Below are positions 1,453 through 28,887 of a DNA stretch of 64,000 nt, piece after piece (position 1 is the stretch's first letter; the number at the start of each line of letters is the position of its first letter). Source of the DNA: Brevibacillus sp. (lineage in GTDB: Bacteria > Bacillota > Bacilli > Brevibacillales > Brevibacillaceae). The DNA lies in assembly GCA_017656235.1 (NCBI GenBank), contig JACDOF010000013.1, positions 1 through 64,000 on the forward strand, written 5' to 3'. Below the pieces are notes generated by a model. The model was given only the letters and a program-made list of their open reading frames with translations, did no database searches and was not told the origin of the DNA. The position numbers were made by a program, and so were the translations under genes.

Positions 1453-1479
1453 TTGACGGACTAATGTTTCTTTTATAAT
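1453..1479 (+). promoter_or_regulatory. SigA-type promoter of the catabolic operon
   Basis: TTGACG (1453-1458) and TATAAT (1474-1479) are separated by 15 bases, slightly short, in a strongly AT-rich region. It is the only good promoter seen between the terminator at 1291-1348 and the RuBisCO-like gene, and a palindromic operator follows at the expected start of transcription. Confidence 0.6.
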
Positions 1480-1489
1480 ATGAACTTTA

Positions 1490-1512
1490 GTTAGATATAA
1501 ATTATATCTAAC
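1490..1512. promoter_or_regulatory. Perfect 23-bp palindromic operator
   Basis: GTTAGATATAA (1490-1500), one central A, then TTATATCTAAC (1502-1512) form a perfect inverted repeat with 11-bp arms. It starts 10 bases after the -10 box, over the likely transcription start. The natural candidate to bind it is the GntR/FCD regulator encoded inside the operon at 4276; repression relieved by the substrate is the simplest model (inference). Confidence 0.65.
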
Positions 1513-1586
1513 ATAGATCTATGTAATAAATTGGAATATTATACGCTGATTATTACATGCCTATTGATTAAAAGGAGGTGTCACTA

Positions 1587-2846
1587 TTGGTAGAAGATCG
1601 TATCATTGCCACCTACTTGATAGAAACAGCGTTTCCTTTGGAATACGCAGCTGAAGTCATGGCGGGGGAACAATCAACCGGAACCTTTGTGTCTGTTCCT
1701 GGGGAGACACCTGAATTGAAAGAGAAACATGCTGCCCGTGTGATCGAAGTGAAGGAATTGGAAGCGGTATCACAACCGTCGCTGCCGCATGCTAAGATTC
1801 CAAAAGGTGTTCACACCCCTGTTTACACAAGAGGGATTGTGAAACTTTCCTTCCCTCTCCAAAATATCGGCTTGTCCCTTCCCAATCTAATGACCATGGT
1901 TGCCGGAAATTTATATGAATTAAATGAATTCTCCGGATTGCGGTTACTCGATATAGATCTTCCGGATTCGTTTGCGCGTAAATATCCCGGTCCTCAATTC
2001 GGGATCGAAGGAACGCGAAAACTGGCGGGGGTATATGACCGACCGATGATTGGTACTATTGTAAAACCCAGTATCGGTCTAAAAACAGACGAGTATGGTC
2101 CGCTGGTAAGAGCGTTGGCGGAAGCCGGGATCGACTTTATCAAGGACGATGAACTTTGCGCTGATCCTCCATGTGCGCCTTTTGAGCAAAGGGTAAAGGT
2201 CGTCATGGAGGAAATCAACAGGGCAGCTGATAAAACAGGGAAAAAGGTGATGTATGCATTTAATATTACCGGAGATATCGATGAGTTGAAGCGGAAGCAC
2301 GATATCGTCTATGAGGCGGGCGGTACCTGCATCATGGTAAGTATCAACAGCGTCGGTCTCAATGCGGTGGAATACCTTCGACGATATTCACAACTGCCGA
2401 TACATGGGCACCGTAATCAGTGGGGGGCCTTAAGTCGTTATCCGATGCTTGGGTTCGGTTTTGCCGCATATCAAAAATTGTGTCGACTTGCGGGGGTAGA
2501 TCATCTCCATACGAACGGCTTAAATAGTAAATTTGCTGAAAGCAACGACAGTGTCGTTCAATCTATTAAAGATTGCTTAACGCCACTATTCGGTGGTTAT
2601 ACGGTCATGCCCGTCTTATCCTCGGCACAATGGGCAGCGAGCGCCATTCCGACGTATGAAGCGGTTCGCTCCGTCGATGTGATCCATTTGGCAGGAGGCG
2701 GAATTCTCGCACACCCGGACGGACCGAATGCTGGAGTCTTGAGCATGATAAAAGGTTGGGAGGCAGCAGTAAAAGGTATCCCTCTGGAGCAATACGCAAA
2801 ACGGCACCCCGAGCTTGCGCGAGCCATTCAAAAATTTGCGAACTAG
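1587..2846 (+). CDS. RuBisCO-like protein, probable sugar-acid-phosphate enzyme
   Basis: A 419-residue RuBisCO-superfamily protein. The barrel motifs are present: GTIVKPSIGL near residue 160 keeps the first active-site Lys, and FIKDDE near 186 keeps the Lys that is carbamylated in RuBisCO together with its metal-binding Asp/Glu. It also has HGHRNQWGAL near 276 and a glycine-rich phosphate site LAGGGILAHPDGPNAG. The second Lys of KPKLGL is Ser, and no GK of loop 6 is seen, so carboxylation of ribulose bisphosphate is unlikely. Known homologues beside DUF1537 kinases decarboxylate or cleave phosphorylated 3-oxo sugar acids (OiaX/OiaT of apiose catabolism). The same kind of reaction is inferred here, with substrate unknown. 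The TTG at 1587 was chosen because AGGAGGTG (1574-1580) lies six bases upstream; the GTG at 1578 falls inside that site. The kinase gene starts 25 bases after its stop. Confidence 0.85.
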   Translation: MVEDRIIATYLIETAFPLEYAAEVMAGEQSTGTFVSVPGETPELKEKHAARVIEVKELEAVSQPSLPHAKIPKGVHTPVYTRGIVKLSFPLQNIGLSLPNLMTMVAGNLYELNEFSGLRLLDIDLPDSFARKYPGPQFGIEGTRKLAGVYDRPMIGTIVKPSIGLKTDEYGPLVRALAEAGIDFIKDDELCADPPCAPFEQRVKVVMEEINRAADKTGKKVMYAFNITGDIDELKRKHDIVYEAGGTCIMVSINSVGLNAVEYLRRYSQLPIHGHRNQWGALSRYPMLGFGFAAYQKLCRLAGVDHLHTNGLNSKFAESNDSVVQSIKDCLTPLFGGYTVMPVLSSAQWAASAIPTYEAVRSVDVIHLAGGGILAHPDGPNAGVLSMIKGWEAAVKGIPLEQYAKRHPELARAIQKFAN

Positions 2847-2871
2847 GCAAGAAATCAGAAGGAGAAGTAAG

Positions 2872-4236
2872 ATGGAGGATCAACAATTACTGCTGGCATT
2901 TTATGGAGATGATTTTACAGGATCTACAGATGCCATGGAAGGACTGGCATCCAATGGCTATCGGACCATTCTCTTTTTGGAAGCGCCGACAGAAGAACTG
3001 GTAAGGAAATTCAAAGGAATACGCTGTATAGGCGTCGCAGGTACCAGCCGTGCCAAAGCTCCTTTGGAGATGGAGGCGGAATTGCGGCCAGTATTCGAGA
3101 AGCTGGCTCAGCTGCACGTGCCGATCGTTCATTATAAAGTTTGTTCAACATTTGACTCCTCTCCAGAAGTGGGGAGTATTGGAAAAGCTATTGAAGTTGC
3201 ACGCGACTATTTTTCAAAAGAGGCTGCGATTCCTTTGTTGGTCGGGGCCCCCTCGCTAGGACGGTACACGCTATTTGGTCAACACTTCGCGAAAATGCAC
3301 GATGAAGTGTACCGCTTGGATCGACATCCGACGATGTCGCGGCACCCGATCACACCGATGGAGGAAGCTGATCTGCGGCTGCATCTGGGGAAGCAGACGC
3401 AGGAAAAAATTGAACTCTTTAACATTCTCGAATTGGACGGTGATCCCGAAACCGTTCTGGAAAAGCTGAAAGCCAAGCTTTCACAAAAACCGGGAATCCT
3501 TCTGTTTGACGTTTTAGATGAACCCCGCTTGCTTATGGCAGGACGACTGATCTGGGAAGAAGCACATCGTATGTCCAGATTTGTTGTGGGTTCTTCAGGA
3601 GTGGAATACGCCCTGACCGCGTACTGGAAGGCTAACGAGATTCTTCCGATGGACGAACAGGTGAGCAGGGACCTTGTGAAACCTGCGGATCGGATATTTG
3701 TCATCTCCGGAAGTGCCTCACCCGTAACCAAATTGCAAATCGAAAACGCTTTACAGCAAGGTTTTTACGGAATTCGCATCCCGGTCCCTCACCTTGTCAA
3801 TTCCCGGGCGGTTCCTCAACAACTTCTGGACGAAGCGATTCAGCAATTAAATCAAGGGAAGAGTGTCATCATGTACACTGCGATGGGGCCCGATGACACA
3901 GCCATTGCCGAAACCAGGGAGCGCCTCGCTGACATGGGGATGAGGGACACCGAATCTGGGGCGTTTATCGGCAGCCAATTGGGAAAATGGACTCGAGAAA
4001 TCATGAAAGCTGCTCAACTTCGGCGTGTCGTCATTGCTGGCGGGGATACTTCCGGGTTTGTCACAAGAGAACTGAATGTATACGGTTTGGAGGTACGATT
4101 GTCAATCTCTCCGGGGGCTCCGTTGTGCAAAGCCTATTCGCATGACAAAGAGCTTGATGGCATTGAATTGGCGTTAAAAGGAGGGCAGTTGGGAAGTACT
4201 GATTATTTTGTAAGGGTGAAGCAGGCGAAATCTTAA
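2872..4236 (+). CDS. DUF1537 / OtnK-family sugar-acid kinase
   Basis: A 454-residue four-carbon acid sugar kinase. The N-terminal substrate domain opens with FYGDDFTGSTDAMEGL, the family signature. The C-terminal nucleotide domain shows VISGSASPVTKLQIENA and, near the end, IAGGDTSGFVTRELN. Characterised members phosphorylate erythronate, threonate, 3-oxo-tetronates or 3-oxo-isoapionate. In this operon it should phosphorylate a keto acid made by the dehydrogenase at 4977 and hand it to the RuBisCO-like protein or the class II aldolase. The ATG at 2872 follows AGAAGGAGAAG; the reading frame also runs upstream into the previous gene, but that part is not family-like. Confidence 0.87.
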   Translation: MEDQQLLLAFYGDDFTGSTDAMEGLASNGYRTILFLEAPTEELVRKFKGIRCIGVAGTSRAKAPLEMEAELRPVFEKLAQLHVPIVHYKVCSTFDSSPEVGSIGKAIEVARDYFSKEAAIPLLVGAPSLGRYTLFGQHFAKMHDEVYRLDRHPTMSRHPITPMEEADLRLHLGKQTQEKIELFNILELDGDPETVLEKLKAKLSQKPGILLFDVLDEPRLLMAGRLIWEEAHRMSRFVVGSSGVEYALTAYWKANEILPMDEQVSRDLVKPADRIFVISGSASPVTKLQIENALQQGFYGIRIPVPHLVNSRAVPQQLLDEAIQQLNQGKSVIMYTAMGPDDTAIAETRERLADMGMRDTESGAFIGSQLGKWTREIMKAAQLRRVVIAGGDTSGFVTRELNVYGLEVRLSISPGAPLCKAYSHDKELDGIELALKGGQLGSTDYFVRVKQAKS

Positions 4237-4275
4237 CAGGATAAAAACGTTATTGGGGAAGGTGGTTAGGTTTAA

Positions 4276-4914
4276 TTGGAGACCAAAGGACCAGCACTGT
4301 TAAAAGACATTGCCTATGAAAAAATCAAAGAAAGCATCTTAACGGAAGTATTTGCTCCTGGGCAATTTTTGTCTGAGCGGGAATTGATTGAAATGTTACA
4401 AATGAGCAAGACACCAATCAAATCCGCTCTCGTAAGATTGGAAACGGAGGGGTTCGTGACGGTTTCATCCAAGCAGGGAATTATCATCAATGACCTCTCG
4501 GTGGAGCGGATTATCGACATCTATAACCTGCGAACCGCGTTGGAAACGTTTGTGTGTGAGCAGATTTGCGGGAGGCTTTCTTCCGAGCAGATTAGGCTGA
4601 TTCAAGAGAATTTAAAAGAGACGGAAGAAAGTGTTAATGAACGAAACGCAAAAGTGTTCACCGAAAAAGATCACGCATTTCATCTGTTGTTGTGTCAGTT
4701 TTCCGGAAACCAGGAGATATATCGCATTCTGCTCAATTATCAGGATCACTTGAAACGAATCACTCTTCGGCATCTGAAAAAAGATCCGAATCGAATGAAA
4801 CGTTTTTGGATGGAGCATGAAGAAATGGTTGATTGTTTGATCAATGGAAATCAGAAAGTCATCCAACTGATGAAGGAACACTTGCAAAACTCCAAACAAA
4901 GCTTATTTGCATAA
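4276..4914 (+). CDS. GntR-family (FCD) transcriptional regulator of the operon
   Basis: A 212-residue regulator. The N-terminal winged helix (residues about 8-72) contains KESILTEVFAPGQFLSEREL and SKTPIKSALVRLETEGFV. The C-terminal part is the all-helical FCD ligand domain, with FTEKDHAFHLLL, where His and Asp normally bind a metal that contacts a carboxylate ligand. The start is TTG, with AAGGTGG a few bases upstream. It sits between kinase and dehydrogenase genes in the same direction, so it is co-transcribed. The palindrome at 1490-1512 is its likely target. Confidence 0.85.
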   Translation: METKGPALLKDIAYEKIKESILTEVFAPGQFLSERELIEMLQMSKTPIKSALVRLETEGFVTVSSKQGIIINDLSVERIIDIYNLRTALETFVCEQICGRLSSEQIRLIQENLKETEESVNERNAKVFTEKDHAFHLLLCQFSGNQEIYRILLNYQDHLKRITLRHLKKDPNRMKRFWMEHEEMVDCLINGNQKVIQLMKEHLQNSKQSLFA

Positions 4915-4976
4915 CCTTTCCTTTCATGAACAGAGATGTGGAGTGAGAGAGAAATCGTGTAGGAGGAAACATTTTG

Positions 4977-5999
4977 ATGAAAGCGGTTTTTGTAGAAGCA
5001 GCTTACCAAGTAAAGGTGAAAGAGATTGAAGAGCAGCAAGTTCGTGCTGACGAAGTGGTGATCAAGGTAAAGGCTGCAGGGATCTGTGGTTCCGATATTC
5101 ATACCTATAAAGGTCTGCATCCGTTTCGGAAACCCCCTGTGATCATTGGACACGAAGTGGCGGGGGAAATCGTGAAAGTGGGGGAAGCCGTCACGACATT
5201 GAAAATTGGTGACAGGGTCACAGTTGAACCTCAAACAGGTTGTGGAAACTGTGAATATTGTTTGAGCGGAAAGGTCAACTTCTGCGAGCAAAGAGGGGCG
5301 CCGGGAGTAGGCAATTGGTATGGCACGATGGCTGAATATTTCGTAGCACCGGAAAACTGTGTGTTCCGACTGCCGGACAATGTTGACTTGTATCAAGGTG
5401 TTCTGGTCGAACCACTTGCCGTTGGTGTTCATGCTGTACGGAAAGCGGACATCAAACTGGGGGAAAAAGTGGCAATATTGGGAGCAGGACCTATCGGGCT
5501 GCTCACATTGGAATGTGTGAAAGCTGCTGGAGCTGCTGCCATTCTGGTAACAGACGTGATGGATTATGCCTTGGAAAGTGCCAAGAAATTGGGAGCAACG
5601 TATACCCTGAACATTACAGATAAACCCAATTGGGTTCATGACATAAAGGAGCAAATTGGTTTATTCGACAAAGTTCTTGTTGCAGTAGGGGTCCCCGGAA
5701 TCATTAACCAGGCATTGGGGCTGTTGCGGAAAGGAGGCCGCGTCGTTACCATTGCCATGTTCCATGGCGATCAAACCATTGACATCGCCCATTTGCAAGG
5801 CTCTGAGAAAGAGATCGTGGGATGCATGACCTATAACAGAGAAGATACATTGACGGCAATTGATCTCATTGCAAACGGTTTCGTGCGATCCGATGTGATC
5901 ATCACGCACAAACTTCCATACGAAAAAGTGGCTGAGGCTTTTCGTATTGTGGACAAGAAAGAAGATTCTTCGATTAAAGTTCTGGTCACCTTCGATTGA
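4977..5999 (+). CDS. Zinc-dependent medium-chain alcohol/polyol dehydrogenase
   Basis: A 340-residue MDR-family oxidoreductase. The catalytic zinc site is formed by Cys of GICGSDIH, His-Glu of GHEVAGE and the acidic residue of the PLAVG region. The structural zinc site has four cysteines in GCGNCEYCLSGKVNFC. The NAD-binding fold shows GAGPIGLL. Relatives include L-threonine, galactitol and sorbitol dehydrogenases. It should oxidise a secondary hydroxyl of the imported substrate to a ketone before phosphorylation. AGGAGG at 4961 favours the ATG at 4977 (10 bases) or the in-frame TTG at 4974 (7 bases); the ATG gives the family-typical MKAVFVE start. Confidence 0.85.
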   Translation: MKAVFVEAAYQVKVKEIEEQQVRADEVVIKVKAAGICGSDIHTYKGLHPFRKPPVIIGHEVAGEIVKVGEAVTTLKIGDRVTVEPQTGCGNCEYCLSGKVNFCEQRGAPGVGNWYGTMAEYFVAPENCVFRLPDNVDLYQGVLVEPLAVGVHAVRKADIKLGEKVAILGAGPIGLLTLECVKAAGAAAILVTDVMDYALESAKKLGATYTLNITDKPNWVHDIKEQIGLFDKVLVAVGVPGIINQALGLLRKGGRVVTIAMFHGDQTIDIAHLQGSEKEIVGCMTYNREDTLTAIDLIANGFVRSDVIITHKLPYEKVAEAFRIVDKKEDSSIKVLVTFD

Positions 6000-6021
6000 A
6001 AAATGTTACCTCAACATTTTT
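5999..6021 (+). other. Intercistronic stem-loop
   Basis: AAAAATGTT (5999-6007) and AACATTTTT (6013-6021) are perfect inverted repeats with a 5-base loop, directly after the dehydrogenase stop codon. With its T tail it could act as a weak terminator or as an RNA end that allows higher expression of the transporter genes downstream. Confidence 0.5.
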
Positions 6022-6058
6022 CACATATTCAAAATACGCACAAAAGGGGGAATGTTTT

Positions 6059-7087
6059 GTGTTGAGGAGGTTCATGACTCTACTGTTAACTCTAGTCGTA
6101 GTCTTAACGGCAACCGCTTGTGGTGGAGGGGGTGACAATGGAAGCTCAGGCGCAAACACCGGTACAGGAGATGGTGCCGCACAGAAGCCTGTAAAATTAA
6201 AGCTTGGTCATATTGCCGCAGAAAACGATGCTTGGCATAAAGGTGCATTGAAATTCGCCGAATTGGTAGAGCAAAAAACGAATGGCAGTGTCGTGGTGGA
6301 AGTATTCCCAAGCTCTACACTGGGTAATGATCGCGATCTAATTGAAGGAATGCAACTGGGATCTGTTGATTTTGCCCTGGTTGCGGGTGTACTCTCTAAC
6401 TTCTATGAACCGTTATCGATTTTGGAATTGCCTTACTTGTTCCGTGATAAGGAACACTTGGAAAGCGTACTGTACGGACCGATAGGTGAGGAGCTCAAAG
6501 AAGAACTACTGAAAAATGCTCAATTACGCGGTTTGCAGTTTTGGATGAGAGGCCCTCGTGAACTGACAGCAAACAAAAAAGTGGAAACATTGGATGATTT
6601 GAAAGGAATGAAGATTCGCGTTCCAGAAATCCCCGCATCAATCGCGGCATGGGAAGCGATGGGAGCTACACCGACTCCTATGGCTTTTGGTGAAGTATAC
6701 TCTTCCCTGCAAACGGGTGTGATTGATGCACAAGAGAATCCACGTGCATTAATAAATAGCTCAAAGTTTTATGAAGTACAAAAATACTTGATGAAAACGG
6801 ACCATGTGTTTGGTTATGTACTGCTAACCATGAGCGATCTCTCGTACAACAAGTTGACTCCTGAACAACAAAAGGCAGTCGAAGAAGCCGCTAAAGAAGC
6901 GACAGAGTATGAAAACAAGCTGGTCTTTGATTTGGAAGAAGAGCTGTTGAAGAAACTGCAAGATGCAGGGATGGAGTTTGTAGAACTGGACACGAAACCG
7001 TTCATCGAGGCCGTAAAACCTGTTCACCAGGAGTTCGCGAACAAATACGGTCAAGAACTCTACGACAAAATTGTGAATACGAAGTAA
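6059..7087 (+). CDS. dctP: TRAP transporter solute-binding lipoprotein (DctP family)
   Basis: A 342-residue extracytoplasmic binding protein. It begins with a positively charged end, a hydrophobic helix and the lipobox-like TATAC at the Cys of ACGGGG, so it is probably lipid-anchored. Family hallmarks are LKLGHIAAENDAWHKGALKF near the N-terminus, GMKIRVPEIPA, FGEVYSSLQTGVIDAQENP and the C-terminal HQEFANKYG. The Arg in MKIRVPE normally pairs with the ligand carboxylate, consistent with an acidic substrate. The GTG at 6059 has AAAGGGGG eight bases upstream. The ATG at 6074 has GAGGAGG only three bases away and would lose the charged region. Confidence 0.87.
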   Translation: MLRRFMTLLLTLVVVLTATACGGGGDNGSSGANTGTGDGAAQKPVKLKLGHIAAENDAWHKGALKFAELVEQKTNGSVVVEVFPSSTLGNDRDLIEGMQLGSVDFALVAGVLSNFYEPLSILELPYLFRDKEHLESVLYGPIGEELKEELLKNAQLRGLQFWMRGPRELTANKKVETLDDLKGMKIRVPEIPASIAAWEAMGATPTPMAFGEVYSSLQTGVIDAQENPRALINSSKFYEVQKYLMKTDHVFGYVLLTMSDLSYNKLTPEQQKAVEEAAKEATEYENKLVFDLEEELLKKLQDAGMEFVELDTKPFIEAVKPVHQEFANKYGQELYDKIVNTK

Positions 7088-7100
7088 ATCAAACATTTCG

Positions 7101-7136
7101 GGAATTGGCACTCGAAACGACTCGAGTGCCAATTCC
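7101..7136 (+). other. Perfect 15-bp stem-loop between dctP and dctQ
   Basis: GGAATTGGCACTCGA (7101-7115) and its exact reverse complement (7122-7136) enclose a 6-base loop. No T tract follows, so it looks like an mRNA-stabilising 3' end rather than a terminator. It would let the binding protein be made in excess over the membrane subunits. Confidence 0.65.
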
Positions 7137-7181
7137 AACATCCAAAACGTTCCTAAACTTCCATGCAGAAGGGGATATGGG

Positions 7182-7673
7182 ATGCAACGAGCGATTAAAA
7201 TCATCGATGCCATCAACAAGATTGTCAGTATCGTGTTAAGCGTGCTCCTGGCTGCCATGACATTTCTTATTGTAACGCAAGTATTTACGCGTTATGTCAT
7301 AAATGTATCGCTCACTTGGACAGAGGAAGCAGCAAGATATGTCATGGTATATGCCGTCTTTCTGGGAGCGGCACTGGCAATACGCAAGCAAAAACATGTC
7401 GCCATCAAAATTCTTTCGGAATCCATTAATGAACAAAAACGCAAACTGTTGCAGCTCATCGTTTTACTGATCTGTATCGCGTTTTTTTTCATCTTGCTTG
7501 TAAAAGGCATTGATATGATGGAGCACGTGAGCAAACAAAAATCACCCGCATTGCGAATTCCCATGACCATACCCTACGCTGGGATCCCCATCGGAGCAGG
7601 ATTGTTGATACTCAACTCCATAGCGGTCATCCTGGAGATGTTCTCTGGCAAACAGGAGGTGAATCAATCATGA
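7182..7673 (+). CDS. dctQ: TRAP transporter small membrane subunit (DctQ family)
   Basis: A 163-residue protein with four membrane helices, at about residues 12-36, 47-68, 85-106 and 126-150. The family motif around TWTEEAARY is present after the first helix. It forms the small integral subunit that pairs with DctM. The ATG at 7182 follows AAGGGGATATGGG. The stop overlaps the next start by four bases (ATGA at 7670), so translation is coupled. Confidence 0.88.
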   Translation: MQRAIKIIDAINKIVSIVLSVLLAAMTFLIVTQVFTRYVINVSLTWTEEAARYVMVYAVFLGAALAIRKQKHVAIKILSESINEQKRKLLQLIVLLICIAFFFILLVKGIDMMEHVSKQKSPALRIPMTIPYAGIPIGAGLLILNSIAVILEMFSGKQEVNQS

Positions 7674-8944
7674 TCGTCATGTTGATGGGGTTTCTCTTGT
7701 TTTTCTTCGCAATCGGGGTTCCTGTAGCAGTAGCAATGGGGTTGGCATCCGGTCTGGCGATCTGGTGGAACGACGGAGCACCCTTGACCGTATTGGTTCA
7801 ACGTTCCTTTACTTCGATTGATTCGTTTCCCTTGATGGCGATTCCGTTTTTCATCTTGGCAGGGGTCTTGATGGAGTTCGGTGGGATTTCCAAGCGCCTG
7901 GTTAACTTTGCAAACGCTTTAACAGGGCACTTTGCGGGCGGGCTTGGTATTGTCACGGTGGTAACTTCCATGTTTTTTGCAGCGATCTCAGGGTCAAGCG
8001 CGGCAGCAACAGCCGCTTTGGGGAGTATTTTGATTCCGGCGATGATTGCGCGTGGATATCACAAGAACTTTACAGGAGCACTCCAGGCAGTATCCGGGGA
8101 ATTGGGAGTCATTATCCCGCCCAGTATTCCCATGATTTTATATGGGGTATCAACCGAAACGTCTATTGGAAAAATGTTTGTGGCTGGAGTCATTCCAGGT
8201 ATCTTAATTGGTCTTTCTCTTATCCTAACTGTTTACAGCATTGCGAAAATGCGCAAGTATGCTCGGGAGACCAAGAAATCAGGCCGCGAATTATGGCAAG
8301 CCCTAAGAGAAGCGTTCTGGGCTTTGATCATGCCTGTCATCATTCTCGGCGGTATATATGGCGGGGTGTTTACACCGACTGAAGCCGCTGGTGTTGCCGT
8401 TGTTTATGCTTTTATCGTTGGCACATTTGTGTACAAAGAGATCAAGTTTAAAGATTTGTTCACTATCTTGTCGGAATCTACCATCACCACCTCTGTTATT
8501 ATGTTTATTATTGCCAGCGCCGGATTGTTTGGATGGATTTTAACTAGAGAGGGGATCCCTCAGTTGGTAGCGAGCTTCTTTATTGACCTGTCCGACAATC
8601 CAATCGTTTTCTTGATCCTGGTTAACATTTTCTTGCTTATTGTCGGCATGTTCATGGAAACGGGCGCATCCATCATTATATTGGCTCCGCTGCTTGCACC
8701 AGTGGCTGTTCAGATGGGCATAGACCCTGTACATTTTGGGATTATTATGATCGTCAATCTGGCTTTGGGGATGTGTACTCCACCATTGGGGGTTAACCTG
8801 TTTATCTCCTGCCAGATTGCAAACATTCGACTGGAGCAAATAACCAAAGGGATGATTCCGTTTTATGCAGTCTTGTTGATAGATTTGGCGCTGATCAGCT
8901 TTGTTCCAGCCTTGTCCACCTGGATTACGCAGTTTCTGGAGTAA
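7670..8944 (+). CDS. dctM: TRAP transporter large permease subunit (DctM family)
   Basis: A 424-residue, roughly twelve-helix permease that carries the sodium-coupled transport path. Typical DctM segments are seen: FPLMAIPFFILAGVLMEFGG, ITSMFFAAISGSSAAATAA-like VVTSMFFAAISGSSAA, IPPSIPMILYGV, GVFTPTEAAG and LALGMCTPPLGVNLF. AGGAGGTG precedes its start within dctQ. With 6059 and 7182 it makes a complete TRAP system. Confidence 0.92.
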   Translation: MIVMLMGFLLFFFAIGVPVAVAMGLASGLAIWWNDGAPLTVLVQRSFTSIDSFPLMAIPFFILAGVLMEFGGISKRLVNFANALTGHFAGGLGIVTVVTSMFFAAISGSSAAATAALGSILIPAMIARGYHKNFTGALQAVSGELGVIIPPSIPMILYGVSTETSIGKMFVAGVIPGILIGLSLILTVYSIAKMRKYARETKKSGRELWQALREAFWALIMPVIILGGIYGGVFTPTEAAGVAVVYAFIVGTFVYKEIKFKDLFTILSESTITTSVIMFIIASAGLFGWILTREGIPQLVASFFIDLSDNPIVFLILVNIFLLIVGMFMETGASIIILAPLLAPVAVQMGIDPVHFGIIMIVNLALGMCTPPLGVNLFISCQIANIRLEQITKGMIPFYAVLLIDLALISFVPALSTWITQFLE

Positions 8945-8995
8945 ACGGAATTGGACGAATATGGTGAAACAATTAAGAAAGGGACTGATTGCCTG

Positions 8996-9658
8996 ATGAA
9001 TGAAAAACAGGTGATTTGCGAACTGCAAAAAACCGGCAAATACATGATGGAACATGGATTGGCTTGGGGTAATGCGGGAAATATCAGTGCCCGTATTGAT
9101 GACAAACACTATGTCATTACAGCCAGTGGAACCTTTTTAGGGGAACTGGATGAGACGGATTTTGCAGTGTGCTCTTTATATGAGCAGATCCCTCCAAAGG
9201 GGAAAAAAAAACCTTCCAAGGAAACCCCCATGCACAGAGCGATCTACGAAACGCGCCCGGATATTCAAGCTGTTTTGCATGCCTCACCTTTTTACAGCAC
9301 GCTGATTGCATGTTCTTCCATCAAGATTCCCTCTAACTGGTTTGTTGAGACCATGTATTATCTGGAGCGGGTCGAGAGGGTGCCTTATCATCATCCAGGC
9401 AGTCAGGAATTGGGTGAAGCGGTAAGGGCAAAAGCCAAGCGGGCGAACATTCTCCTTCTGGAAAATCACGGCGTGCTGGTTTATGATGTCAGCATTCGGG
9501 AAGCCAGAATGGCTCTGCAAACGTTGGAAATAGCCTGCAAAATGCTGCTGACTGCTCACCAGGCAAACGTAAACATGAACCCATTGCCTTCGGATGTCGT
9601 ATCTGACTTCTTGCTAAATGCGGGATACAAACCGAGAAGGAAATGGGAGGATTCCTAA
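8996..9658 (+). CDS. Class II aldolase/decarboxylase-like protein (FucA/OtnC/adducin family)
   Basis: A 220-residue class II aldolase-fold protein. The phosphate-binding WGNAGNISAR segment, the Glu of KETPMHRAIYE (catalytic acid position in fuculose-phosphate aldolase), the first zinc His in AVLHASPFYST and the last zinc His in ENHGVLVYD are present. The second His of the usual HxH pair is Ser, so metal binding may be altered. OtnC-type relatives decarboxylate 3-oxo-tetronate 4-phosphates and work with OtnK kinases, which fits this operon. The ATG at 8996 was taken as the start; a TTG at 8951 is in frame but adds non-conserved residues. It is the last gene before the terminator at 9691. Confidence 0.8.
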   Translation: MNEKQVICELQKTGKYMMEHGLAWGNAGNISARIDDKHYVITASGTFLGELDETDFAVCSLYEQIPPKGKKKPSKETPMHRAIYETRPDIQAVLHASPFYSTLIACSSIKIPSNWFVETMYYLERVERVPYHHPGSQELGEAVRAKAKRANILLLENHGVLVYDVSIREARMALQTLEIACKMLLTAHQANVNMNPLPSDVVSDFLLNAGYKPRRKWEDS

Positions 9659-9690
9659 CCATCAGGAGATAACGATAGCAAACAGGAACT

Positions 9691-9757
9691 ACCCCCTTTG
9701 GCTGTGTTGGCCACAAAGCCTCGTTTGAAACAATCGTAGTCCAAGGGGGAGGTTTTT
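9691..9757 (+). terminator. Operon terminator
   Basis: ACCCCCTTTGG (from 9691) pairs with CCAAGGGGGAGGT (9741-9753) around an inner hairpin based on GGCT/AGCC, followed by TTTTTT. It closes the catabolic operon. Confidence 0.65.
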
Positions 9758-16122: not shown

Positions 16123-16292
16123 CTTGTCGTCGACCTCCAGTCGTGCAGTAACCCCGGGGGATCGACGACAAGCTGTTTTTTGGTGGATTGCTTGTGGGAT
16201 AAGGGATTTAGGAGGTTTCGGGCAAGCGTCTGGAATTTTTTTCTGTGATCATGTATGCTAAAAGAAAGCTGACAGTACAAGGGTTTTTTGGG
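16123..16292 (+). promoter_or_regulatory. Leader of CRISPR array 1
   Basis: The segment shares blocks with the leader of array 2: GTCGTCGACCTCCAGT, GGGGATCGACGACAA, GGGATAAGGGATT, AAAAGAAAGCTG and GGTTTTTTGGG right before the first repeat. CTTGTCGTCGA (16123-16133) and TCGACGACAAG (16162-16172) are a perfect 11-bp inverted repeat followed by a T run, 120 bases before the first repeat. TATGCT near 16255 is a candidate -10 for pre-crRNA transcription. Leaders direct new spacer insertion by Cas1-Cas2. The hairpin could also end transcription from the SAP gene. Confidence 0.7.
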
Positions 16293-17453
16293 GTTTTGAT
16301 CGTACCTATGAGGGATTGAAACCATGGCTCTGAAAATCTCCTGGTGTTCGGGTTTGGCGTTTTGATCGTACCTATGAGGGATTGAAACAAAAGCTGACGG
16401 TAGAAGTTTCGGATGTGAAACGGAGGGTTTTGATCGTACCTATGAGGGATTGAAACAGACGATGCAACAGGTTGAGCCGAAACAGGAGGATGTTTTGATC
16501 GTACCTATGAGGGATTGAAACTTACTCTCATGCTCATATGCAGAAAGATACAGAACCTTGTTTTGATCGTACCTATGAGGGATTGAAACTCGGATGGTGT
16601 GGGAGAGGGTGAAGAAAGGAGGTTATGTTTTGATCGTACCTATGAGGGATTGAAACAACCGCCCCATTTCTATATCAATACTTTGGAAGGCGTTTTGATC
16701 GTACCTATGAGGGATTGAAACTTCGTTTTTCGCTTTTCTTACTAAGCCGATTTCGTGTTTTGATCGTACCTATGAGGGATTGAAACGCGACGTTCGTCAC
16801 TTCTTGGACGGACGGGCCAAACAGTTTTGATCGTACCTATGAGGGATTGAAACAAACCGGTACTCAGGGTGTTCGTGCAGCCGAACTGGTTTTGATCGTA
16901 CCTATGAGGGATTGAAACTCTGCGGTGTCAGTCGAACACGTCACATTGGCGTTTGTTTTGATCGTACCTATGAGGGATTGAAACCTTTCCACACTTGGCC
17001 GGGCTTGTTCACCCATTTTGTTTTGATCGTACCTATGAGGGATTGAAACAATTAAATAAAAAAAGCCCATGATCTGGGCTTATTGTTTTGATCGTACCTA
17101 TGAGGGATTGAAACTCGGTCAAGCATTTCCCTGGAGGACAAAGGACGGCAGGGTTTTGATCGTACCTATGAGGGATTGAAACGTTCTATCCAGGTGTACT
17201 ATGACCATCCGGTTGAACCGGTTTTGATCGTACCTATGAGGGATTGAAACCGTCACGTTTTAATGCAGACTCAGTAAACCCGCATTGGGTTTTGATCGTA
17301 CCTATGAGGGATTGAAACATGACTACGATGCGAAGACGTCCGACCACGCGAACAGTTTTGATCATACCTATGAGGAATTGAAACATTTTGTAATATGCGC
17401 ATATTTCTTTAATGTCGATTTGGGTTTAGATCCTACCTATGAGGAATTGCCCC
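16293..17453 (+). CRISPR. Type I-B CRISPR array 1 (18 repeats, 17 spacers)
   Basis: The 30-base repeat starts GTTTTGATCGTACC and ends TATGAGGGATTGAAAC. Sixteen copies are identical. Repeat 17 (17355-17384) has two changes. Repeat 18 (17424-17453) is strongly decayed and ends GAGGAATTGCCCC. Spacers are 35-39 bases long. Decay at the right end and the leader on the left show transcription on the plus strand. The 3' eight bases, ATTGAAAC, are the expected 5' handle of the crRNA after Cas6 cutting. Confidence 0.97.
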
Positions 17454-21493: not shown

Positions 21494-22183
21494 ATGAAGG
21501 TTTTGGCTTTCGACGTCACAGGGGCATTGGCTCATTTCCGCAAGCCGGATACGACCGCCACACAGTTGACCTATCCGTTCATCACACCGACAGCGGCAAA
21601 AGGGTTGGTTGGTGCCATTTTGGGACTCTCTGATTTTCGCACGAGGGATCGAGTCGGCATTCAGTTGCTGCGTCCCGTGAGACAGTCGGCACAGCAGATG
21701 TCCATGCTGGGGAAAGATGGGGGACAAGTGTTTAACCGTCCGACTACCATCGAGTTATTGGTACAGCCCGGCTATCGAATCTATTATGCCGGTGACGAAT
21801 ACAGTGATGATCTGCACGACTTTTTACTAAAGGAGCATGCAGTTTATCCAACGTATTTAGGGGTTGCCTTTGCCCTGACAAAGCCCAAGCTTGTACAAGT
21901 GTTTGAACAGGTCTCACCTGTACAAGATCGCTTGGAACAGATCGTGACAAAAACAGTTGTTCCCGCAGAGATCGTTCAGGACCTTGTGATAGAACCTGAT
22001 CGGCATTACAGCCGGGCGGGCGGTTTCCTTCGACAATACTTGGGCGACCGTACCTTTGAAAAATCCGTGGACTTTATCTACGAACGGCAGGGAAAGCCGA
22101 TGTCCGTACGCTTGGCGGATGATTTCTTGTCCTCAGATGTGCAAATTGTTCGTTTGGGAGATGAATACGTATGTCTGGTTTGA
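21494..22183 (+). CDS. cas5: Cas5 (type I-B) Cascade subunit
   Basis: A 229-residue RAMP protein that caps the 5' handle of the crRNA. The start MKVLAFDVTGALAHFRKPDTTATQLTYPF-type region and PTAAKGLVGAILGL are the family hallmark (beta strand and glycine-rich loop). It begins 14 bases after cas7 with GAGGG upstream and overlaps cas3 by 13 bases. Confidence 0.93.
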   Translation: MKVLAFDVTGALAHFRKPDTTATQLTYPFITPTAAKGLVGAILGLSDFRTRDRVGIQLLRPVRQSAQQMSMLGKDGGQVFNRPTTIELLVQPGYRIYYAGDEYSDDLHDFLLKEHAVYPTYLGVAFALTKPKLVQVFEQVSPVQDRLEQIVTKTVVPAEIVQDLVIEPDRHYSRAGGFLRQYLGDRTFEKSVDFIYERQGKPMSVRLADDFLSSDVQIVRLGDEYVCLV

Positions 22184-24549
22184 CCCCGTTTGCTTCGTGT
22201 ATAGCACGTCCTGATGAGGGAGAGCGGAGATACCCTCTTGAGCAGCACCTGCTTAATGTCAAGCAGTACATGGAAGAGTGGGTTCGCGCCAGCGGGATCT
22301 ATCGGGAACAGCAAGGATTGATACAACTTATGGGACTGGCCGGTTGCTGTCACGACATCGCCAAGTCTCACCGGAAATGGCAAGCGTACATTCGTAGTCG
22401 TTCTAACAACGTCAAAGGCCCCCCGCACGCTCCGGCAGGGGCCTTTCTTTTTTCCTACCTGGCTTATCACCTGTTACACGCGAGAGGGGAGTGGCGGGAC
22501 TATAAACGGCACTGGCTCTGGATGATCCGTGACGTGGCTGACCATCACGGCAGGCTCAAGGATTTGTCGGAGGTTGCATGGGTGTACAAATACGAATGGA
22601 ATGAGATGGATCTAGAGGGGATTGAAGCGTTTTTCAAAAGAGAGTATCGTGAGTTAGCCAATGTCAGCATTTCCGTGTCTGGATTGATTGAGTGGATAAA
22701 AGAGGTTCGTCTTCACATTCGCCAGGTTGAGTGGGAACTGTTTGCCCAGCCGGATCAAACATACATGGAAGCGATGAGAGAATTGCAGCGCCTTCGACAT
22801 CTTAGCACCGGTTTGATCGCAGGGGATCGTTTTGACATTGTATCTACTAACAACCCGATGTTGACGGATGAGCAATTAAAGAGATCTAACCTGCATATGG
22901 ACCGTTACTGTAACAGCAAGCAGCTGCACCGGTTGGCAAACGAGCGGAAACGGGCCCAACATGCCATTCTTGCCCAACTGGCAGCAAACCCGCAGCGCAA
23001 AATGTATACGCTGGAGATGCCGACCGGATACGGAAAAACGATTACCTCTCTCAAACTGGCTGTCTGGCTAGCCCAGCAGCAACGATACCACAAAATCGTC
23101 TATGTAGCTCCCTATATTTCCATCCTGGAACAGACCGCTGAGGTGATCCGGGATGCAATGGATATGGCGGCACTTGAGCACCATTCGTTAGCGGTATGGG
23201 ACGACGACCAAATCGAACAACGAACCGGCAAAAGCCAACTCACAATGGAATCCTGGGCCCATGAAGTTGTCTGCACCAGCTTCCAGCAATTTGGCAAAGC
23301 AATCTTCCCCAAACGAGCACAGGATTTGCTGCGCAGGGCTTTTCTGCAAGACAGCATCATCCTCATTGACGAACCACAGATTTTCTCGCCGGAAGGCTGG
23401 AATCTCTTTTTGTGCGGGTTGGAATCGATGGCGGAACAGCACAATCTGCGTGTGATTTTTTTGTCTGCAACAATGCCGCCCTTTCATGAAGGATTAACGA
23501 CTCCTCCTACACCGCTTCGCTACAAACCGGAGAAGACACAGGAGCGATACGAAGTATGGTGCCAGTCTGAATCCATGGATGAGCAGCAGTTGGCTGCCTT
23601 TTTGCTGGGGCGTCACGAACGGAAACAAGCAGCAATCCTGAATACCATTGAGGATGCCGTGCGTGTACACCAATGGGTAACAGAACTGGCTCCAGAAATC
23701 GATACTCGACTTGTGCACGGTCTGATGATTCCGTTACATAAAAAAATCGCTATCCGCAGCATTCAGCACCACTTGACTGATTGCCGGGATCACCCGTTGA
23801 TCGTGGTTTCCACCCAAGTGCTCGAAGCGGGTGTAGATGTCAGTTTTCAACATGTGGCCAGAGCTTTGCCGATTATGCCTTCCGTAGTGCAGGCCGCAGG
23901 TCGTGTCAATCGCCATGGTGAAGCGGAAAGAGGAATTTTGACATTATTCCGTTTTTTACGAAACGGCGAGAAAGATACACGTTCTTCTATCTACCGCCAT
24001 CATCTGCTCAGCATTACGGACGATTTGCTTCAGCGCCGACAGGTGTGGACTGAATCCCAGATGAACGAACTGATTGAAACCTACTACCGTACCATGTTCA
24101 AAGAGAACCGCTTTACGGCCAGCATGAACACCATACTGGATGCGTATCGGGGGGAATGGTCGGAGGTAAGCAAGTTTGAGCCGTTTGGTCAGGATTTGAT
24201 GCGTTTGCCCCTGTTCGTCCCGTGGCAATACGATGAAGCGGCGAGATGCTTTTTGCCGGAGCAGTTTGTCCGCTTGCAGGAAAGGTTTGCGCTTTTTACA
24301 CCAGAGAAAATTTATGAATGCTATCGGGATCGTGATTACTGGAAGCGACGTGATATGGCGGAGCGGAAGCAGTTTATGATTTTGTTCAATCACTACGTTT
24401 TAAACGTTCCCGTGAAGGTTGCTCTAGATTGTGTGGGGAAGGAGGATTACCTGGACAATCGCATTCCGTACTTGGAGGACACAGATGCGTACGATCATTG
24501 GAAGGGCTTGATCAGACACTTTGATGAAGTCGGTGATACCATCATCTAG
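22171..24549 (+). CDS. cas3: Cas3 nuclease-helicase (HD plus DExH)
   Basis: A 792-residue effector. The N-terminal HD nuclease has GCCHDIAKSHRKW near residue 52 and VADHHGRL near 128. The superfamily-2 helicase shows PTGYGKT (near 288) for ATP binding, ILIDEPQIF as Walker B, FLSATMPP as motif III and QAAGRVNRHGE as motif VI. It degrades DNA bound by Cascade. The ATG is inside the end of cas5, which indicates coupled translation. Both domains look complete. Confidence 0.95.
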   Translation: MSGLTPFASCIARPDEGERRYPLEQHLLNVKQYMEEWVRASGIYREQQGLIQLMGLAGCCHDIAKSHRKWQAYIRSRSNNVKGPPHAPAGAFLFSYLAYHLLHARGEWRDYKRHWLWMIRDVADHHGRLKDLSEVAWVYKYEWNEMDLEGIEAFFKREYRELANVSISVSGLIEWIKEVRLHIRQVEWELFAQPDQTYMEAMRELQRLRHLSTGLIAGDRFDIVSTNNPMLTDEQLKRSNLHMDRYCNSKQLHRLANERKRAQHAILAQLAANPQRKMYTLEMPTGYGKTITSLKLAVWLAQQQRYHKIVYVAPYISILEQTAEVIRDAMDMAALEHHSLAVWDDDQIEQRTGKSQLTMESWAHEVVCTSFQQFGKAIFPKRAQDLLRRAFLQDSIILIDEPQIFSPEGWNLFLCGLESMAEQHNLRVIFLSATMPPFHEGLTTPPTPLRYKPEKTQERYEVWCQSESMDEQQLAAFLLGRHERKQAAILNTIEDAVRVHQWVTELAPEIDTRLVHGLMIPLHKKIAIRSIQHHLTDCRDHPLIVVSTQVLEAGVDVSFQHVARALPIMPSVVQAAGRVNRHGEAERGILTLFRFLRNGEKDTRSSIYRHHLLSITDDLLQRRQVWTESQMNELIETYYRTMFKENRFTASMNTILDAYRGEWSEVSKFEPFGQDLMRLPLFVPWQYDEAARCFLPEQFVRLQERFALFTPEKIYECYRDRDYWKRRDMAERKQFMILFNHYVLNVPVKVALDCVGKEDYLDNRIPYLEDTDAYDHWKGLIRHFDEVGDTII

Positions 24550-26460: not shown

Positions 26461-26627
26461 TGTCGTCGACCTCCAGTAGAGTAGAAAACCTTGGGGATCG
26501 ACGACAATTTGTTTTTTCTCAGAATGCTTGCGGGATAAGGGATTGGCGGTTTTGGTGGAAACATATGGCGTTTTTGTAGGAGATGGTGTATTGTTAAAAG
26601 AAAGCTGGTGTATTAAGGTTTTTTGGG
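26461..26627 (+). promoter_or_regulatory. Leader of CRISPR array 2
   Basis: It shares several blocks with leader 1. TGTCGTCGA (26461-26469) and TCGACGACA (26498-26506) form the same inverted repeat, again followed by a T run, and its end is 121 bases from the first repeat (120 in leader 1). AAAAGAAAGCTG and GGTTTTTTGGG stand directly before the array. The conservation marks the bases needed for spacer acquisition or transcription. Confidence 0.7.
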
Positions 26628-28887
26628 GTTTTGATCGTACCTATAAGGAATTGAAATCTGTTTTGTGAAATCTGCCCGCGCGATGACGACCATGTGTTTT
26701 GATCGTACCTATAAGGAATTGAAATACAACATACCGTGCGTTTTGTGCGATCGAGCGCTCCGTTTTGATCGTACCTATAAGGAATTGAAATTTTTCCATG
26801 ACAGGTGTTTCTGATCGGGTGGAGACAGGTTTTGATCGTACCTATAAGGAATTGAAATCCTTCTGAAAAAACTTTTTCATGAAAATTCCTCCTTACTGTT
26901 TTGATCGTACCTATAAGGAATTGAAATAGGGCGTCCGGGTTGTTGAGCAGCCCGAAGAGCTGAGTTTTGATCGTACCTATAAGGAATTGAAATTTATTCT
27001 GACGATAGGATGAACGAAGATTTGCCAACTGGGTTTTGATCGTACCTATAAGGAATTGAAATTTTCGTGATAGGCATACAGTTCTGACTCTATGTGCTGA
27101 AAGTTTTGATCGTACCTATAAGGAATTGAAATCATTCCGGATGAGTTGTTGCAGGATGAGCGGGGGATCGTTTTGATCGTACCTATAAGGAATTGAAACA
27201 TATTTCTAGCTCTTGCCATCGCTCATCTTCCCTCCCGTTTTGATCGTACCTATAAGGAATTGAAACTGACCAAAGATGATGAACATATCTATAAGGCCAC
27301 TCTTGGTTTTGATCGTACCTATAAGGAATTGAAACACGTTGGTTTCGAGCCAGGCGCCCCATTCGCCGTGTGGTGTTTTGATCGTACCTATAAGGAATTG
27401 AAACCGAGATACCGCACCACGTCGAGAATCGAGTCGATGTTCGTTTTGATCGTACCTATAAGGAATTGAAACTCGGGGTGCTCGACGATGAGGTGTACGT
27501 GATTGAGAACCGGTTTTGATCGTACCTATAAGGAATTGAAACGAGCAGTTGTCCGTGAGGAATTGAAACGCCGGAGAAAGGTTTTGATCGTACCTATAAG
27601 GAATTGAAACAGTAAATGATTCTTCTAGCCCAACCGGGCTTTTCTTGTTTTGATCGTACCTATAAGGAATTGAAACAATCATCTCCCTCTTCACACCATG
27701 TGACGTGGAACATTGTTTTGATCGTACCTATAAGGAATTGAAACCCGTTACAATGTGAAACACGCCCGGTGAGAAACGGCTTGCGTTTTGATCGTACCTA
27801 TAAGGAATTGAAACACGATATTGAGAAAGGCGTGGTCAAACGTCCGAATCTTTCAGTTTTGATCGTACCTATAAGGAATTGAAACTTGTTCAAGCTGATA
27901 CCCCCCCTCTCTATTCTGTACTGTTTTGATCGTACCTATAAGGAATTGAAACCCCGTTGAATGGTCACTTTTTATCACCGCCTCGGTACGTTTTGATCGT
28001 ACCTATAAGGAATTGAAACCATTCTCATACACAATGGCCGCCTGCGTTTTTTGTGTGGGTTTTGATCGTACCTATAAGGAATTGAAACTACTCCCAAATC
28101 TCTAAAGTACGATGCGATGTTTTGTTTTGATCGTACCTATAAGGAATTGAAACACCATCTCCATCCCCATCATGATCGCCGGCATGTCCTGTTTTGATCG
28201 CACCTATAAGGAATTGAAACGCGTGTTTCTCTACTCATCCCCTTCCTCCCCCCCTGTTTTGATCGTACCTATAAGGAATTGAAACGATTTGTACAAGCAC
28301 TATTTCGCGTTTGATCCAACGTTTTGATCGTACCTATAAGGAATTGAAAGACGCGAAGGTGGCAGAGTGTTTGGGGTGGACACACAGTTTTGATCGTACC
28401 TATAAGGAATTGAAAGCCAGTTTTAAGATGTTTTCCTTTGAATACTCAAAGTGGTTTTGATCGTACCTATAAGGAATTGAAATGGAGCTGGCTCCCATTC
28501 GCCCATGTCTTCTGTCTGGTTTTGATCGTACCTATAAGGAATTGAAATGTAATAGTTGGTTCCCAGTCTCCTATGTCTTCTGTGTGCGTTTTGATCGTAC
28601 CTATAAGGAATTGAAACGATGATGGCTCGATTGCTATCGAGGATCCCATCCCGTATGTTTTGATCGTACCTATAAGGAATTGAAACCCCAGAATCTTCGG
28701 ACATATGCCACGGGTCATGAGATGTTTAGTTTGTACCTATGAGGAATTGAAACTTTGCTCCAACAGGAAAGGCAAGTAAGCGGATGAGTGGTTTAGTTTG
28801 TACCTATGAGGGATTGAAACATCTCCAGCTCACACCTAATAATCTGATTCGCCCTTTGTTTTGATCGTACCCATAAGAAATTGCCCC
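26628..28887 (+). CRISPR. Type I-B CRISPR array 2 (34 repeats, 33 spacers)
   Basis: The 30-base repeat starts GTTTTGATCGTACC and continues TATAAGGAATTGAAA plus a last base that varies: T in repeats 1-8, C in 9-25, G in 26-27, T in 28-29, then C. Repeat 24 has one inner change. The last three repeats (28724, 28791 and 28858) are diverged. Two of them read GTTTAGTTTGTACCTATGAG, like the array 1 type, and the final one ends AAGAAATTGCCCC. Spacers are 35-41 bases long. Transcription is on the plus strand, away from cas2. Confidence 0.97.

Follow-up and report, generated by a model that had tools for sequence, protein, structure and literature searches.

A recurrent operon of Brevibacillus combines a RuBisCO-like protein, a DUF1537 kinase and an altered class II aldolase homolog, possibly as two exits from one sugar-acid pathway

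This report concerns a window of 64,000 nucleotides from Brevibacillus sp. (assembly GCA_017656235.1, contig JACDOF010000013.1), and in particular an operon near its start that encodes a RuBisCO-like protein (RLP), a DUF1537 kinase, a GntR-FCD regulator, a zinc-dependent MDR dehydrogenase, the TRAP transporter proteins DctP, DctQ and DctM, and a class II aldolase homolog, here labelled ALD2 (Table 1). The explanation tentatively preferred is that this GntR-controlled operon uses one dehydrogenase and one kinase to turn small sugar acids into a 3-oxo sugar-acid phosphate, which would leave by parallel RLP and ALD2 exits. The TRAP transporter would take up the acid, the MDR would oxidise its C3 hydroxyl to give the 3-oxo acid, and the kinase would place phosphate onto the end carbon. 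For a C2-hydroxymethyl (isoapionate-type) acid, the RLP would then, in the manner of OiaT, form 3-phosphoglycerate and glycolate from a compound like 3-oxo-isoapionate-4-phosphate; for an unbranched tetronate, ALD2 would remove CO2 to yield dihydroxyacetone phosphate, as OtnC does. From the sequences we infer the carbon oxidised, both exit reactions, their substrates and the parallel running of the exits; the substrate of the operon is probably a small plant-derived sugar acid. Each of the enzyme families is known, and the combination of RLP, kinase, MDR and ALD2 is a conserved variant arrangement not described in the literature searched, which took in listings, abstracts and passages and does not establish its absence from print.

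An operon at this place had been proposed in an original prediction made from the window's letters, and its reality is supported by recurrence: the order RLP-kinase-GntR-MDR-DctPQM-ALD2 is found again in loci L021, L022, L032, L041, L042 and L043 of other genomes. Pfam searches likewise bear out the predicted genes, all eight of them on the forward strand between 1590 and 9658, including an OtnC-like homolog of class II aldolases in company with the RLP, and an MDR in the place expected for ApnO or LtnD. Neighbourhoods were compared at 100 RLP loci (the window, 8 plasmid loci, 11 stretches from genomes of the same class and 80 named contigs); the best 80 of 552 relatives were included, so that the 100 loci are biased to the window's own kind. 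Loci were counted by tblastn with bit thresholds set by ourselves because a simple open reading frame caller clustered just 77 RLPs. The set of RLP, kinase, MDR and ALD2 is not unique to this genome: 13 of the 100 loci have it, in two gene orders. An MDR match above 250 bits was found at 13 of the 13 ALD2 loci versus three of the 87 others (Rhodoferax L085, L087 and L096), with weaker MDR matches elsewhere. The second order is ALD2-MDR-RLP-MFS-kinase with a divergent sigma-54 activator (L036-L038, L040, L044, L045), and the occurrence of the same four enzymes with different transporters and regulators argues that they act in one pathway. ApnO-type (PGDH_C) genes are present at 42 loci, ALD2 at 13, Asp/Glu-racemase-like genes at 26 and none of these at 21; 14 state changes were counted over the 75 single-state rows of the RLP tree. 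A kinase above threshold is absent from nine of the 100 loci, several of them on short contigs. A search of viral contigs found no relative.

The assignment of the RLP is more secure than the role given to ALD2. Its best NCBIfam model is OiaX (NF042437, 476.3 bits, below the cut-off of 700), and the clustering with MtnW that the original prediction named as its own refutation was not found: the score against MtnW (TIGR03332) is 172.4 bits, far below the cut-off of 513.6, and a second, different RuBisCO-family protein is encoded on another contig of the genome, which together rule out MtnW identity. In a tree of 105 of 107 loci (left out were L074 and L037, the latter with an RLP frame interrupted by a stop), the window groups with six loci of the same architecture (support 99), plus L052 (85); a nearby second set consists of 14 Bacilli rows (91), and the nearest named relatives are from Bacilli. 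Four rows named OiaX by PGAP form a clade of their own (100, branch length 1.0) that excludes the window RLP. At four catalytic positions of RuBisCO (spinach numbering), the window RLP keeps E60, N123, H327 and S379, as do 12 of 12 ALD2-linked rows and six of six Xanthobacteraceae rows (one Xanthobacteraceae and five Ancylobacter loci, a stand-in for OiaT that does not include X. autotrophicus), whereas all four OiaX rows are changed, to D, G, Q and G/C. On cut-off, clade and active-site residues an OiaX identity is rejected, and the full set of RuBisCO-type catalytic residues of the Xanthobacteraceae RLPs, our mark of the OiaT type, is present; judged on these residues, the window RLP is probably OiaT-like, which stops short of proof that it is OiaT.

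The kinase is likewise nearest to the OiaK model (NF042436, 489.3 bits, below the cut-off of 700, against 195 bits for OtnK), and its relatives were placed in a tree of 45 selected rows. In the D-apiose/D-apionate pathway, OiaK works with OiaT in the Xanthobacter type and with OiaX in the Agrobacterium type (Carter et al. 2018, via passages of PMC6302742). The window resembles that pathway in the adjacency of RLP and DUF1537 kinase, in their best models and in having RLP relatives beside ApnO/ApnL/Gfo-Idh-type genes; it departs from it in scoring under both curated cut-offs, and in that its genome has no ApnO or ApnL match and an MDR and class II aldolase homolog instead. The ApnL search (NF049900) matched the control genome G783 (that of L047), below the cut-off, and its null result for the window's genome makes it likely that the imported compound is an acid and not apiose. 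The original prediction had considered neither the substrate nor the order of steps predictable from known pathways, a view that does not sit with the OiaK and OiaX best models, the apiose-type genes beside RLP relatives and the OiaT-like active site.

Oxidation at C3 is proposed because the MDR scores nearly as well with L-threonine 3-dehydrogenase as with its top model (206 against 208 bits) and has that enzyme among its 11 nearest solved sequences. The nearest solved sequence of DctP is 4pc9/4pcd (267 bits, next 191; mean pLDDT of the predicted DctP structure 71), whose ligands are reportedly D-mannonate and L-galactonate. The products proposed for the RLP find an echo in other loci: Aquibacillus halophilus (L046, in the 14-row Bacilli set) has, in this order, racemase-like, RLP, kinase, DctP, DctQ, DctM, GlcD and GlcF genes, GlcD passing its curated cut-off (597 bits against 567.9), and in L012, L013, L107, L099 and L113 the RLP has enolase and/or pyruvate kinase genes nearby. 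Such neighbours would fit 3-phosphoglycerate and glycolate as products.

ALD2 has OtnC as its best model (NF043034, 128.2 bits, cut-off 250). The HxH metal-ligand motif of class II aldolases reads H-A-S or H-S-S in 19 of 19 aligned copies versus H-L-H in the PGAP-named OtnC of L013, and score and motif together argue against a plain OtnC; the glutamate and the last histidine are retained. Also kept in the window's ALD2 are the phosphate-site residues SKE and GNxGNxS. The predicted structure is weak (mean pLDDT 67, residues 97-123 below 50) and so uninformative on the altered metal site. A DUF1537 kinase lies in the same cluster in 19 of 19 copies and an RLP in 13 of 19, of which five were found via the RLP and so count less. 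Among the 13 copies found independently of the RLP in 398 genomes of the same class, eight share an operon with one; in one of these eight (G701, L037) a stop interrupts the RLP frame, with kinase, MDR and ALD2 present.

Other contexts dispense with the RLP altogether. L140 is the window's operon and L142 the second architecture, each minus the RLP, with MDR, kinase and ALD2 kept; the L142 kinase nests among RLP-linked kinases in the kinase tree, and its RLP has therefore probably been lost. No other RLP of this kind was found in the two genomes (the RuBisCO-family frame of G547 is a distant one, and G581 lacks such a frame). In G399, a second locus (L143) brings ALD2 together with TRAP genes, a dehydrogenase resembling LtnD and tartronate-semialdehyde reductase, and a kinase that shares 54% identity with that of the window. 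In L141, L144 and L145 the partners of ALD2 are a protein of the isopropylmalate dehydrogenase type, a DUF1537 kinase of a different kind and a racemase-like protein (family models were run on L144 only). RuBisCO-family frames of 476 and 444 aa in two related genomes (G399:C1:3404271-3405101 and G547:C6:96864-97700) are distant from the window RLP, that of G547 lying close to an aldolase-family frame.

We favour a reading in which ALD2 would act on the product of the kinase and could complete the pathway without the RLP, the latter being an added exit, because the kinase is constant in all 19 clusters, because of the contexts of L140, L142, L037 and L143, and because of the OtnC best model and the retained SKE and GNxGNxS residues. 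3-Oxo-isoapionate-4-phosphate differs from 3-oxo-tetronate-4-phosphate only in its hydroxymethyl group at C2, so that a single dehydrogenase and a single kinase could act for both acids. The tetronate pathway LtnD-OtnI-OtnK-OtnC leads to dihydroxyacetone phosphate, and 3-OtnC has an Aldolase_II domain (Zhang 2016, via passages of PMC12540250). The window shares with it a dehydrogenase, a DUF1537 kinase and an Aldolase_II protein for which OtnC is the best model; it differs in its MDR in place of LtnD, its lack of OtnI in the operon, its added RLP, its kinase nearer OiaK than OtnK and its ALD2 without HxH.

Several points weigh against the two-exit explanation. Firstly, RLP, kinase and ALD2 all score below their family cut-offs, and the chemistry of OtnC is not assured for ALD2 because the second histidine of HxH is gone. 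Secondly, the OiaX and Xanthobacteraceae rows fall in one 80-row group of the RLP tree (99), to which neither the window nor the other Bacilli rows belong; a group that contains both types without the window leaves the tree alone silent on nearness to OiaX or OiaT, for which reason our confidence in an OiaT-like RLP was lowered slightly. At the 69 columns that distinguish OiaX from Xanthobacteraceae, the window agrees with Xanthobacteraceae in 34, with OiaX in 17 and with neither in 18. Thirdly, the window's operon itself has no GlcD/GlcF, enolase or pyruvate kinase genes (of three full-length GlcD-like frames elsewhere in the genome, the best reaches 560 bits and none exceeds the cut-off), and GlcD/GlcF of L046 could be oxidising the substrate instead. 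Fourthly, a second DUF1537 kinase on another contig (G000:C3:36255-36917) and a second, weaker OtnC-like match (contig C1) in the same genome could handle tetronates. Isoapionate, moreover, is not known to have a natural source. Finally, the avoidance of ApnO by ALD2 and the racemase-like gene of Rhodoferax, described below, suit a different explanation at least as well.

That explanation, initially the favourite, divides the work of ApnO, an oxidoisomerase that does both steps as one enzyme, between two proteins: the MDR would oxidise C2 of D-apionate to give 2-oxo-apionate, ALD2 would rearrange this to 3-oxo-isoapionate by retro-aldol and aldol steps with formaldehyde held in the site, before or after phosphorylation, and kinase and RLP would follow in series as OiaK and OiaT. 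It accounts well for the pattern of exchange, in which none of the 13 ALD2 loci has ApnO against 42 of 100 overall (Fisher p 5e-4, uncorrected for kinship). Among the 398 genomes, RLP and ALD2 each occur in 11 and both in eight; these eight have no PF16896 (PGDH_C) match, whereas the other three RLP genomes, without ALD2, do (G511, G549 and G685, in the last ~30 kb away from the RLP), and the same search finds no PF16896 match in the window's genome. ApnO is here equated with the PGDH_C protein on account of its position in apiose-type clusters; one PGDH_C member matches KARI_N too, and NCBIfam models at E 1e-20 gave no match for two PGDH_C proteins. In L034 and L035, with the order RLP-kinase-ApnO-GntR, kinase, RLP and GntR are 53-54%, 66-67% and 52% identical to the window's, and the GntR genes of window-type operons, of these two ApnO-type loci and of the RLP-less L140 are related. 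They also have an operator in common, TAGATCTA occurring at most 200 bases upstream in six of seven GntR/TRAP-type operons (not L042), in both L034 and L035 and in L140, and upstream of none of five tested sigma-54-type operons nor of L046. In the Rhodoferax loci a racemase-like gene follows DctM, in the place of the window's ALD2 (in L085 with a histidine-phosphatase gene between), and racemase-like genes similarly tend to avoid ApnO, the two being found together in two of 26 racemase loci. The discovery of matching operons without an RLP nevertheless lowered this explanation, because in L140 and L142 the pathway would dead-end; ALD2 also clusters with other dehydrogenases (L141, L143, L144, L145), three times with a racemase-like gene as well, and no class II aldolase is known to carry out a rearrangement of this type. 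Overall it is considered unlikely, and a shade more doubtful is the evolutionary form of the idea, in which a class II aldolase-fold subfamily minus one metal histidine would have become a sugar-acid isomerase that, with the MDR, replaces ApnO and feeds an RLP transcarboxylase/hydrolase in Bacilli.

A few neighbours of related RLPs deserve mention beside this exchange. The Asp/Glu-racemase-like protein (PF01177) lies near RLP and kinase, mostly without ApnO and sometimes near GH127 genes, and is a candidate for a further enzyme of the same pathway. In Pontibacter, a ketopantoate-reductase-like gene (PF02558, L116:8446-9387) stands upstream of RLP, kinase and racemase-like genes; pantoate resembles apionate, and by this analogy the protein may be the C2 dehydrogenase there. 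L033 (4974-7460) has an RLP of this family beside an enolase-superfamily (MR_MLE) protein, without a kinase match; ALDH, SDR and MDR genes are close by, and the RLP may have a different use there.

In the D-hamamelose pathway of Ochrobactrum anthropi, an RLP forms the last step and is tied to 3-phosphoglycerate and glycolate (passages of PMC8914248, citing Kim 2018). The link to these two products is what the window's RLP would share with it, and on this precedent the enzymes could act in one series, with MDR and kinase followed by decarboxylation by ALD2 to a keto-sugar phosphate, from which the RLP with O2 would form 3-phosphoglycerate and glycolate. The title of Kim 2018 names an oxygenase. 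The constant company of ALD2 and kinase suits such a series; 87 of 100 RLP loci, however, lack ALD2, and 42 of these have ApnO, so the RLP does not in general depend on prior ALD2 action, and the proposal appears improbable. Poorer still are the prospects of an OiaX-type RLP giving L-erythrulose-1-phosphate, which ALD2 as a true aldolase would split to dihydroxyacetone phosphate and formaldehyde. In its favour, the RLP scores best against OiaX, and Foldseek matches the weak ALD2 model best to a fuculose-phosphate aldolase; but the RLP shows none of the OiaX changes at positions 60, 123, 327 and 379, the ALD2 metal motif is altered and ALD2 is found without RLP, all of which makes this reading very improbable. 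A methionine-salvage operon, which the pairing of an RLP (of the same RuBisCO superfamily as MtnW) with a class II aldolase homolog resembles, MtnW and MtnB being such a pair, is scarcely credible given the MtnW score, 77 bits against an MtnB cut-off of 137, the separate RuBisCO-family paralog and the misfit of kinase and TRAP genes.

Few functions are known for RuBisCO-like proteins, and those of the present lineage stand beside exchangeable sets of partners: ApnO, MDR with ALD2, or a racemase-like protein. Knowledge of the roles of MDR and ALD2 would give an unnamed aldolase subfamily a function, would clarify the use of branched or four-carbon plant sugar acids by Bacilli, and would tell whether one kinase feeds both RuBisCO-like and aldolase-like exits. 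Operons that match except for the RLP, which the window has and L140 and L142 lack, offer a ready natural comparison.

Table 1. Features of the operon and its flanks (window positions), with racemase-like examples from other loci
Feature	Position	Strand	Basis
Promoter-like hexamers TTGACG...TAATAT	1453-1481	+	consensus match only
Perfect palindrome GTTAGATATAAATTATATCTAAC, probable GntR operator	1490-1512		palindrome search
RLP, OiaT-like active site	1590-2846	+	PF00016 226 bits; tree; residues
DUF1537 (SBD_N/NBD_C) sugar-acid kinase, OiaK-like	2872-4236	+	PF07005+PF17042; OiaK model; kinase tree
GntR/FCD transcriptional regulator	4276-4914	+	Pfam match
Zinc-dependent MDR dehydrogenase (L-threonine 3-dehydrogenase / sorbitol dehydrogenase kin)	4974-5999	+	PF08240+PF00107
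TRAP solute-binding protein DctP	6059-7087	+	Pfam match; nearest solved sequence 4pc9/4pcd
TRAP small permease DctQ	7182-7673	+	Pfam match
TRAP large permease DctM	7670-8944	+	Pfam match
ALD2, OtnC-like, H-A-S replacing HxH metal motif	8996-9658	+	PF00596; OtnC model; alignments
Long hairpin then T run, probable terminator	9686-9756	+	folding
Racemase-like protein	L046:9113-9931		PF01177
Racemase-like protein	L085:11205-11879		PF01177
Racemase-like protein	L116:12651-13310		PF01177

With the start codons chosen here, the genes of the operon are separated by 25-94 bases, save for a 4-base overlap of DctQ and DctM. A promoter scan returned 17 sites like the hexamers at 1453 versus 15.3 expected, and that site is thus no evidence by itself. 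The operator palindrome had no match in 100 shuffles, and a second, related site overlaps it (1503-1521). The hairpin after ALD2 folds at -26 kcal/mol (z -2.0), with an equally good fold in nine of 200 shuffles; it was not listed by the terminator scan, which was limited to loops of 3-8. GC content is 0.44-0.50 over 1-10 kb, 0.53-0.59 over 10-16 kb and 0.54-0.63 over 30-64 kb, and the low value over the operon is compatible with acquisition despite a similarly low 0.42-0.51 over 16-30 kb. Upstream of the operon, an Mpo1-like protein (PF06127) is encoded at 911-1270. Further along the window lie two CRISPR arrays (16275-17452 and 26610-28886) with the nearly identical repeat GTTTTGATCGTACCTATRAGGRATTGAAAC, and between them a Cas3-like helicase frame (22171-24549).

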